A DNA stretch of 64,000 nt from NCBI GenBank assembly GCA_025999455.1, contig AP024683.1, forward strand, positions 565,501 through 629,500, in the 5' to 3' direction. Under the pieces are notes generated by a model. The model searched no databases. It was not told the origin of the DNA and saw nothing but the letters and a program-made list of their open reading frames with translations. The position numbers and the translations under genes were made by a program. Below, piece after piece: positions 24,848-29,617 of the stretch (the stretch's first letter is position 1; each line of letters opens with the position of its first letter). The stretch comes from Geminicoccaceae bacterium (GTDB taxonomy: Bacteria > Pseudomonadota > Alphaproteobacteria > Geminicoccales > Geminicoccaceae).

Positions 24848-26635
24848 GTGGCGGCACCCGATCTCGGCGCCAACCTCTGGGAGATGTTCGTGCGGGCCGC
24901 CCGACGCGGCGGCGATCGCCCCTTCCTCGCACGGCGCGAGAACGGATCGTGGCGGCGACGAACGTGGAACGAGATCCGCGAGGAAGCGCTCGCCTTGGCG
25001 GCCTGCCTCGCCGCGCACGGGGTGCGTCCCGGTGATCGGGTCGCAATCGTGGCCGAGAACCGACCCGAATGGTGCGCCGCCGACCTCGCTTGCCTCGCGC
25101 TCGGCGCGGTCACCGTACCGGCTTACACGACCTGGACCGCCGAGGACTACGCCTACCTGCTCGACCACGCCGAGGCCGTGGCGGTCATTGTCGGGGGCGG
25201 GACGATCCCGGACCGGATCGAGGCTGCTTTGAGCGGGCGTCCGCCCCGCCGCTTGGTGGTCGCGCTGGAGCGACGACCCGACGTTCCCGCCGGGACGCCG
25301 GTCCTCGACTGGCACGAGGCCCTCGCGCTCGGCCGAAATACCGGCGCGGAACTCGCCGGCGATCGAGCCTCGACCGGCGATCTCGCCTGTTTCATTTACA
25401 CATCGGGCACGGGCGGTCGGCCCAAAGCCGTGATGCTCACGCATGGGAGCATCATGGCGAACCTCGAAGGAGCCTGGGGTCTATTGGAAGAAGTCGGCAT
25501 CGGCGAGGATGTATTCCTTTCGTTTCTCCCCTTGAGCCATGCTTACGAGCACACGGTCGGGCAATTCCTGCCGATCGCCATGGGAGCCGAGATTTGGTAC
25601 GCGGACGGGGTGGAGCGTCTGTCGCACGACCTGCTCGACGCTCGACCCACGATCTTCACCTGCGTGCCGCGCCTCCTCGAGGTGATGCGCCAGCGGATCC
25701 TCGCCCAGGTCGACCGCCAAGGTGGTGTGCGTGCGAAACTCTTTCGCGCGACGCTGGCCCTCGGGCTCCGGCGATTGGAGCGGGGCGAGCTCGATTCGGC
25801 GCTTGCCCTCCTCGATCGTCTCCTCGACCGTCTGGTCCGCTCGCAAGTGAGGGCGCGCTTCGGCGGCCGGCTCAAAGCGATGGTCTCGGGTGGCGCGCCT
25901 TTGAACCCCGAGGTCGGACGGTTCTTCTTGGCCCTCGGCGTCCCCCTTTTGCAAGGCTACGGACAGACCGAGGCGAGCCCGGTGATCAGTGCCAATCGAC
26001 CTCGTCGCAACAAGGTCGAGACCGTCGGCCCACCGCTCGACGGTGTGGAGGTACGGATCGCCGAGGACGGTGAAATCCTCGTCCGGGGGAAGCTCGTGAT
26101 GAAGGGTTACTTCAAGGATCCGGAGGCGACGGCGGCGACCTTGCGCGACGGCTGGCTACACACCGGTGACATCGGCCGGATCGATGACGAAGGCTTCCTC
26201 TCGATCACGGATCGTAAGAAAGACATCATCGTACTATCGGGCGGGGACAATGTCGCGCCGCAAAAAGTCGAAAGCATCCTGGCACTCGAACCGGAGATCG
26301 GCCAAGTGCTCGTCTACGGCGACCGCCGTCCCCACCTCGTTGCCCTCGTCGTGCCGTCGAAGGAGCTCTTGGAAGCGGCAGCGGCGCGATTGGGGGTACC
26401 GATGGGGAGCCCGCAGCTCGCCTCGGACCCCGAACTAAAACGCGCCGTGGATGAAGCGGTAGCCAGAGCGAACACCAAGCTTTCTTCCACTGAGAGGATC
26501 CGCCGCGTCGAGCTCGTAATCGAACCCTTCACGGTCGAGAACGGGCTTTTGACCCCGACCCTGAAGCTGCGCCGTGGGCGCATCGTCGAACGACACGGCA
26601 TCGCGATCGAGCGGCTCTACGCCGGGTCGGCGTGA
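24848..26635 (+). CDS. Long-chain fatty-acid-CoA ligase (AMP-binding, FadD/FAA type)
   Basis: A 595-residue adenylate-forming enzyme that activates fatty acids with ATP and CoA. It has the P-loop-like YTSGTGGRPKAVMLTHGS, SFLPLSHAYE, QGYGQTEASP and the hinge/catalytic core GWLHTGDIG...DRKKDIIVLSGG (as separate segments). The form matches the AMP-forming long-chain ligases with the FAA-type C-terminus. The GTG start is preceded by GGGGAGGAAGG. Chain-length preference cannot be read from sequence. It ends shortly before a minus-strand terminator. Confidence 0.9.
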   Translation: MAAPDLGANLWEMFVRAARRGGDRPFLARRENGSWRRRTWNEIREEALALAACLAAHGVRPGDRVAIVAENRPEWCAADLACLALGAVTVPAYTTWTAEDYAYLLDHAEAVAVIVGGGTIPDRIEAALSGRPPRRLVVALERRPDVPAGTPVLDWHEALALGRNTGAELAGDRASTGDLACFIYTSGTGGRPKAVMLTHGSIMANLEGAWGLLEEVGIGEDVFLSFLPLSHAYEHTVGQFLPIAMGAEIWYADGVERLSHDLLDARPTIFTCVPRLLEVMRQRILAQVDRQGGVRAKLFRATLALGLRRLERGELDSALALLDRLLDRLVRSQVRARFGGRLKAMVSGGAPLNPEVGRFFLALGVPLLQGYGQTEASPVISANRPRRNKVETVGPPLDGVEVRIAEDGEILVRGKLVMKGYFKDPEATAATLRDGWLHTGDIGRIDDEGFLSITDRKKDIIVLSGGDNVAPQKVESILALEPEIGQVLVYGDRRPHLVALVVPSKELLEAAAARLGVPMGSPQLASDPELKRAVDEAVARANTKLSSTERIRRVELVIEPFTVENGLLTPTLKLRRGRIVERHGIAIERLYAGSA

Positions 26636-26647
26636 CGGCGCTCGGCC

Positions 26648-26678
26648 AAAAAAAAAACGCCGCCCGGGGCGGGGCGGC
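26648..26678 (-). terminator. Strong intrinsic terminator
   Basis: On the minus strand GCCGCCC, a 6-base loop and GGGCGGC are followed by G and ten T (A-run at 26648-26657 on the plus strand). It can end transcripts coming from the chaB-like gene or from the promoter at 26829-26857. It has no T-run on the plus strand, so it does not terminate the acyl-CoA ligase mRNA. Confidence 0.85.
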
Positions 26679-26822
26679 TCGAGGAAGGGGCTTCGATACG
26701 ATGCCGGTCGGAGCACCGGCGATGTCGGGGGCAAGGGGACGTCGGTCCGCTGGGACCGTGGCGGATCCGTGCACGGATGAGCGCTTCGGCTCGGCCGCGG
26801 ACCTTTCCTCGTAGTTCTCCTC
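26648..26822 (-). ncRNA. Candidate structured small RNA of about 175 nt
   Basis: The 310-bp gap between the acyl-CoA ligase and chaB-like genes has no coding potential but much symmetry. A closing stem pairs TTCCTCG (26805-26811) with CGAGGAA (26680-26686), extended by two G-C pairs past a bulge. Inside it are three perfect hairpins or palindromes: ATCCGTGCACGGAT at 26765-26778, CGGTCC/GGACCG at 26743-26758 with a 4-base loop, and GCCGGT/ACCGGC at 26703-26720 with a 6-base loop. The terminator follows directly. A promoter-like pair lies upstream. It does not match the conserved cores of 4.5S RNA, RNase P RNA or tmRNA. An alternative is a structured 3' UTR of the chaB-like mRNA. Confidence 0.5.
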
Positions 26823-26828
26823 GCCGCG

Positions 26829-26857
26829 ATATCCTCACAACATTTCGGTCGAGTCAA
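26829..26857 (-). promoter_or_regulatory. Promoter-like pair ahead of the candidate small RNA
   Basis: On the minus strand TTGACT (26852-26857) is followed after 17 nt by GGATAT (26829-26834). The -35 element matches the sigma-70 consensus in five of six positions; the -10 is weak. The patch 26826-26900 is much richer in A and T than its surroundings. TTATCCACT at 26883-26891 resembles a DnaA box with one mismatch. Confidence 0.45.
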
Positions 26858-26945
26858 CGATATCGGACACAAACTGTAGGACTTATCCACTGAAAGTTGC
26901 ACGCGGCGGCGGCTGGCTTCGGTCGCGGGCCGAGGTCCTACGCCT

Positions 26946-27167
26946 TCAGGACCGGAGCCGCTCGCGCGAGCGGCGCCAGAGCCCGTCCGGACCGCGTCGC
27001 CAGCCGGCTCGCTTCAACGCACCCCAGGCCTGGCGGAAGCAGGAAGCCTCGTCGTAACCTCGGCTCCACGCGGCATTGAAGACTTCGAGGAAAAGGCGTC
27101 GGCCGTCCTCCTCGACGACGTGATCCCGGACGGCTGGAGGTAGAGCGGCGGTCGTGGCCCAAGGCAT
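26946..27167 (-). CDS. ChaB-like small protein
   Basis: A 73-residue protein resembling ChaB: it has LPPAVRDHVVEED near the N-terminus, then LFLEVFNAAWSRG and FRQAWGALKRAGW, corresponding to the family pattern of LPxxVRxxL, AFNxAW and AWxAVKxxY. ChaB in enterobacteria is named as a regulator of the ChaA cation antiporter, but its function is poorly defined and no chaA is nearby. The ATG has GGAGG 8 nt upstream. It lies 260 bp after the uvrB stop codon on the same strand and upstream of the candidate small RNA. Confidence 0.7.
   Translation of the reverse strand: MPWATTAALPPAVRDHVVEEDGRRLFLEVFNAAWSRGYDEASCFRQAWGALKRAGWRRGPDGLWRRSRERLRS

Positions 27168-27427: not shown

Positions 27428-29617
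<2,190 letters not shown>

Follow-up and report, generated by a model that had tools for sequence, protein, structure and literature searches.

Trans-acting small RNAs (sRNAs) that associate with Hfq and carry C-rich seeds are found in Alphaproteobacteria, e.g., the alpha-r families of rhizobia and GsrN of Caulobacter. Intergenic RNAs that are transcribed from a promoter of their own, contain a C-rich stretch, end in a terminator, and occur in Hfq-encoding hosts most often act through pairing with mRNAs. The unit described here, from a bacterium of the Geminicoccaceae, resembles the alpha-r RNAs and GsrN in being a stand-alone gene of ~175 nt with a promoter, an intrinsic terminator, a C-rich stretch, and Hfq-encoding hosts. 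It differs from them in lying below every Rfam gathering score and, in the searches made, in being found only in part of the Geminicoccales. CsrB, RsmY, and RsmZ also have features in common with the unit, namely a conserved 5′ AGGA and hosts most of which encode CsrA.

The preferred reading, given a probability of about 0.7, is that the unit is a stand-alone gene for a trans-acting regulatory sRNA confined to some of the Geminicoccales. That the unit exists as a conserved entity is well supported by sequence comparison, and it appears to represent an undescribed sRNA gene family with a restricted distribution. The RNA would be transcribed from its own promoter under a regulator that binds an upstream element, and Hfq would bind the transcript. 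The C-rich element (UUGCCCC / CGCUGCCC) may pair with G-rich stretches, e.g., the ribosome-binding sites of target mRNAs, and this pairing would alter the translation or stability of those mRNAs. An Hfq gene is present in 29/31 genomes of the order; the RNA itself occurs in the two genomes that lack a match, G028 (82% complete) and G016 (86%). The unit adds to the Geminicoccaceae a candidate sRNA gene family that is defined by a model, coordinates, and a conserved promoter.

Locus and parts of the predicted RNA gene

The window, i.e., the whole 64-kb stretch of DNA that was analysed, is part of a single-contig genome of 3.76 Mb (G000). The unit is located in the gap between a convergent long-chain acyl-CoA ligase (AMP-binding) gene on the plus strand (24848..26635) and a ChaB-family gene on the minus strand (26946..27167; Pfam ChaB 28.4 bits, cut-off 27), which lies outside the unit and downstream of uvrB (27428..29617, minus strand). 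Only mechanical ORFs are present in this gap, in agreement with the initial annotation, which had seen no gene in the interval. BLAST within the genus found the unit in all five other genomes, each time between uvrB and the same ligase, making both genes neighbors in 6/6 genus genomes. The chaB hit is detected at the locus in four of the six and is absent in G004 and G005 (L004 and L003); judged by eye, degenerate traces of chaB may remain in G004. Outside the genus, the ligase is seen near the unit in 9/15 members of the RNA family within the flank examined.

The promoter is on the minus strand at 26829..26857. TTGACT (26857-26852), a 17-nt spacer, and GGATAT (26834-26829) are all present as originally described, and the -10 hexamer is preceded directly by an extended -10 TG (TTGTGA). 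A generic sigma-70 scan of the window did not include this site among its calls, so the case for the promoter is its conservation. The TTGA of the -35 element is invariant across 15 aligned members, and the region preceding the -10 element is also kept. The unit as first delimited is too short on its upstream side: the conserved block CAACTTTCRGTGGATAA starts at 26899. The added part contains the conserved upstream element CAACTTTCAGTGGATAA (26883..26899, minus strand), which was scanned for with the pattern CAACTTTCRGTGGATAASTYCTA and has as its core the 8-mer GTGGATAA/TTATCCAC (26883-26890). The pattern matches with 0 mismatches in 6/6 genus genomes and with 2 mismatches in G015, a member of another genus; at up to 3 mismatches, the other 24 of the 31 genomes of the order are unmatched.

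The predicted sRNA is ~177 nt in length and spans 26648..26824 on the minus strand, with the start taken from the -10 element (uncertain by ~3 nt) and the end from the T-run. Its 5′ end is a conserved purine-rich element, CGAGGAGAACTACGAGGAAAG (26803..26823, minus strand). A central stem-loop arm follows (26744..26803, minus strand), whose position is kept while its sequence is variable; its fold has z < 0 in 19/20 members scored, with a mean of -1.67, in a dataset that leaves out G012 as too short. The conserved C-rich element GUCCCCUUGCCCC (26728..26740, minus strand) was recognized in alignments and is the proposed pairing seed. Several other genera have UCCCGCUGCCC or CUGCUC at this element, and it takes an altered form in G005 and G015.

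The RNA ends in an intrinsic terminator hairpin (26659..26678, minus strand). As the initial annotation had reported, a GC stem (26678-26659) is followed by ten T (26657-26648). A survey near RNA ends that had been set by hand found a GC-rich terminator hairpin in 21/21 members. At least four T occur within the 8 nt after the hairpin in 17/21, and the remaining 4/21 lack a T-rich tail over this distance. By its sequence, the unit therefore has a promoter and a terminator of its own, as expected of an independent transcription unit, and its transcription is predicted from them.

Conserved parts and the stems first described

Conservation among the six genomes of the window's genus is concentrated at the promoter and the 5′ end. 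Mean pairwise identity is 75.6% for the upstream element, 76.0% from the -35 element to the start, and 85.5% for RNA nt 1-22, compared to 27.9% for the adjacent upstream spacer in the same six genomes. The promoter block and the first ~22 nt are far better kept than this spacer in 6/6 genomes. The RNA body diverges fast (53.3%). The value for the aligned terminator region, 43.4%, is depressed by the alignment, because each RNA carries its own hairpin.

The initial annotation had drawn its attention to a 7-bp closing stem and to internal hairpins. The fold of the ~176-nt minus-strand stretch has a predicted energy of -74 kcal/mol, a modest excess of stability over dinucleotide shuffles (z -2.13), and 2/200 shuffles were as stable; stability of the whole fold would by itself be weak evidence in such G+C-rich DNA. 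Without its last 45 nt, the RNA is not more stable than shuffles (mean z -0.35 across members). The closing stem CGAGGAA/TTCCTCG does exist in the window sequence but is not conserved in the five congeners, where 2, 2, 3, 5, and 3 of its 7 pairs are kept in a single MAFFT alignment. Such pair counts lean low, as the terminator scores 1-3 of 7 in the same alignment though each RNA has its own hairpin. A check that does not depend on alignment gave a longest helix between the 5′ stretch and the 3′ part of 7 bp in the window and of 5, 3, 4, 4, and 4 bp in the congeners. The compensatory changes by which this stem was to be judged are likewise missing, the stem being neither kept nor covarying in the five congeners.

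Outside the genus, the same check found helices of 6-8 bp in 5/15 members (G017 7, G018 8, G019 6, G020 6, and G028 7), and a GGAA run is present in two of them, G028 and G019. These helices are taken for chance because G016, a close relative of G028, has 4. A different closing helix, in which the 5′ end would pair with the C-rich element, appeared plausible by eye in G002 and G005. It was rejected for lack of covariation, since the arms of one RNA are predicted to pair no more strongly than arms exchanged between members (-8.37 kcal/mol for cognate vs -8.65 kcal/mol for permuted arms, with 15071/20000 permutations as low).

The internal hairpins fared similarly: they are present in the window sequence and have mostly decayed in the five congeners. 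Hairpin a keeps 5, 3, 5, 3, and 2 of its 7 pairs and the palindrome 6, 3, 1, 5, and 1 of 7, both in the MAFFT alignment. The CCGGU/ACCGG hairpin is intact in 3/5 congeners and deleted in 2/5, making it perfect in four genomes when that of the window is counted. The striking hairpins of a single sequence thus mostly proved not to be the conserved part. On comparison of sequences, the features that persist are the promoter, the AGGA-bearing 5′ end, the stem-loop arm, the C-rich element, and the terminator hairpin.

Distribution and search against described RNAs

Model R1 is a sequence-only model of the promoter plus the 5′ end, built from 15 sequences. In the window, R1 scores 74.8 bits at the unit and nothing above 5 bits elsewhere. 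It matches 21/31 Geminicoccales genomes searched, representing 10/16 genera. Six of these genomes (G028, G024, G016, G011, G019, and G029) are outside its training set; the scores of the six untrained matches are 43.7, 41.7, 35.7, 27.4, 25.3, and 15.4 bits, the weakest having an E of 0.023. Inspection of the DNA behind the ligase in 28 genomes of the family found the unit in 15, 13 by regular expression and two (G017 and G018) by eye.

The other 10/31 genomes of the order have no R1 match. A search of the sequence downstream of parB, run without filters, gave no match in six of them (G022, G027, G008, G009, G014, and G013). The contig ends at parB in G030 and G025, and G007 and G023 have no parB match at 1e-55. 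Presence of the unit, placed as a label on trees, changes 3 times on the ligase tree and 2 times on the parB tree; loss or divergence is therefore as possible as late gain.

A sample of 385 genomes of the class, searched with stricter filters (>40 genomes) that lose weak matches, had 5 with an R1 match: 4 in the family and 1 weak match in G296 (18.9 bits, E 0.0014), which is taken for chance. The DNA downstream of parB in other families gave no match up to E=1 in 60 stretches searched with filters off and 27 loci searched with default filters. These 87 are a subset, near the top of the list, of 189 other-family genomes with a parB match, and two of the stretches are shortened by a contig end. 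A motif scan of the same 87 loci gave one match, in L158, at a position read as parB coding. The exact pattern of promoter plus 5′ end was found in 15 stretches among 84,980 species; five are the genus relatives and ten are from unrelated taxa and are taken for chance. The unit was unmatched in the plasmid record collection.

No Rfam 15 family reaches its gathering score at the window locus or at five genus loci, and ARAGORN finds no tRNA or tmRNA at the locus, bearing out the earlier remark that the RNA did not look like tmRNA. Rfam matches up to E=10 at the window locus score only 11-16 bits, with cut-offs of 41-81. At nine other loci of the family, searched up to E=1, nothing falls inside the unit. 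Two sub-threshold matches there are both placed by their coordinates within the ligase gene: M23 in L067, with 26.9 bits (gathering 41.2), and a fluoride riboswitch in L061, with 20 bits (gathering 34). Among the titles and opening lines of abstracts in the open-licence literature, none describing this RNA was found, and no paper there combines 'Geminicoccaceae' and 'small RNA'. The conserved promoter, the differing upstream genes, the terminator hairpin, and the sub-gathering Rfam scores all favor an independent, uncatalogued sRNA of about 175 nt, the first of two possibilities that the initial annotation had put forward.

Placement behind parB and competing readings

Outside the window's genus, the unit is located directly 3′ of the chromosome-segregation gene parB in 15/15 members, including all six that are not in R1. 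In the window's genus, it lies behind uvrB(-chaB) and opposite the same ligase as in many relatives. In G015, parB precedes the unit, and the same ligase gene as at the window locus lies opposite. The unit of the window's genome is ~88 kb from parB, together with uvrB-chaB and the ligase. The ancestral place of the unit was probably directly behind parB, judging from these arrangements, and in the window's genome a rearrangement has probably parted the RNA gene from parB.

This placement bears on a more specific reading, in which the sRNA is tied to the chromosome cycle: ancestrally located behind parA-parB and driven through TTATCCAC, it would tune mRNAs of replication, segregation, or growth. 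The TTATCCAC element occurs on either strand at positions -61 to -67 relative to the predicted start in 15/21 members and is missing in 6/21. It keeps its distance from the start whichever strand it is on, the behavior expected of a binding site, and could be a site for a regulator. Only one copy, the unit's own, is present in the 64-kb window, and the 62 kb of family loci hold two others, both in G018. A link to the chromosome cycle is a tentative proposal of low probability; if it holds, the order would have a riboregulator of its own that is linked to replication. The unit would provide a way into the RNA-based control of the chromosome cycle in these bacteria if its promoter element, or its linkage to parB, is functional. 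In G018 (genus g14), three TTATCCAC sites, two of them TTATCCACAG, lie within and beside the RNA gene over a span of ~310 nt (L099:1288-1597), perhaps as an origin-like cluster.

A CsrA-titrating RNA is slightly less probable and, on the evidence, unlikely. The motifs ACAAGGA and CGAGGA would bind CsrA, and the RNA would either sequester CsrA or be protected by it. CsrA is encoded in 29/31 genomes of the family, including that of the window, and AGGA occurs within the first 30 nt of 21/21 RNAs, compared to 1.9 expected from shuffles, the members being related and not independent. The ACAAGGA of several members agrees with the ACA-R-GGA core in the SELEX consensus for CsrA, RUACARGGAUGU (PMC7652899). 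The many GGA motifs, mostly in hairpin loops, that are expected of CsrB and RsmY are not observed in the unit: each RNA has only one or two AGGA sites in its first 30 nt, the GGA total of the window RNA is close to that of shuffles (4 vs 3.3), and the conserved AGGA sites are predicted to be no more unpaired than background (0.34 vs 0.40). Moreover, the RNA carrier G029 (89% complete) has no CsrA match and is one of the two misses. To our knowledge, no CsrA sponge RNA has been described in this group. Among 14 control genomes, CsrA matches were obtained in E. coli, B. subtilis, and T. maritima only.

It is also improbable, somewhat more so than CsrA titration, that the unit serves chiefly as DNA, either as a conserved promoter or as a site bound by protein, and that its transcript is incidental. 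The TTATCCAC box, which is like part of a DnaA box, is rare outside its conserved position and occurs there in both orientations, and the usual place of the unit adjoins parB. Against this reading, nt 1-22 of the RNA exceed the promoter in identity (85.5% vs 76%), the terminator hairpin is kept, the unit of the window's genome is far from parB, and 6/21 members lack the 8-mer. The sequence TTATCCACA, the E. coli-type DnaA box 9-mer, has zero copies on both strands of the 3.76 Mb of G000, while its reversed control has 7. Its absence from the window's genome weakens the DnaA reading. The origin of G000 may use other DnaA boxes.

The second possibility of the initial annotation, a structured 3′ UTR of the chaB-like mRNA, was not upheld, and a 3′ UTR of whichever mRNA lies upstream (chaB or parB) in place of a separate RNA is highly improbable. 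The unit does lie close behind the upstream gene and on the same strand. The chaB gene is undetected in 2/6 genus genomes, and the unit cannot be a chaB 3′ UTR where it directly follows parB, as it does in every member outside the genus. Between genera, the gene upstream changes (parB, or uvrB alone or followed by chaB) and the promoter stays, which argues that the unit is independent, and the intervening promoter block is among its best-kept parts.

Least probable is a leaderless small protein whose translation would begin, in some genera, at a GTG at nt 6 of the RNA and which would read VKQGK... in g6 and g12 (L092, L095, L097, L098, and L100) and a similar VMQG... in g2 (L083-L085): in 5/6 genomes of the window's genus, the first 25 nt contain no start codon, GGGTCCC shares a frame between g6 and g12 and falls in a different one in g2 and g15, and the C-rich element varies in frame even inside g12. 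A small ORF was rejected on the same grounds, as the conserved elements do not hold to a common reading frame; among nine RNAs with a GTG at nt 6 and a located C-rich element, this element occurs in all three frames. Frames and the lack of early start codons thus indicate a unit that is probably not protein-coding.

6S RNA is similar to the unit in length and is also a stand-alone unit. The 6S model (RF00013) has no match at the unit, and another locus of the same genome takes the 6S score. That locus, between the ZapA gene and the 5-formyl-THF cyclo-ligase gene (L012:1501-1647; G000:C1:2124259-2124405, plus strand), scores 36.9 bits with the 6S model, under the gathering cut-off of 46.4. It is the probable 6S RNA of G000, a divergent one that the Rfam cut-off would miss.
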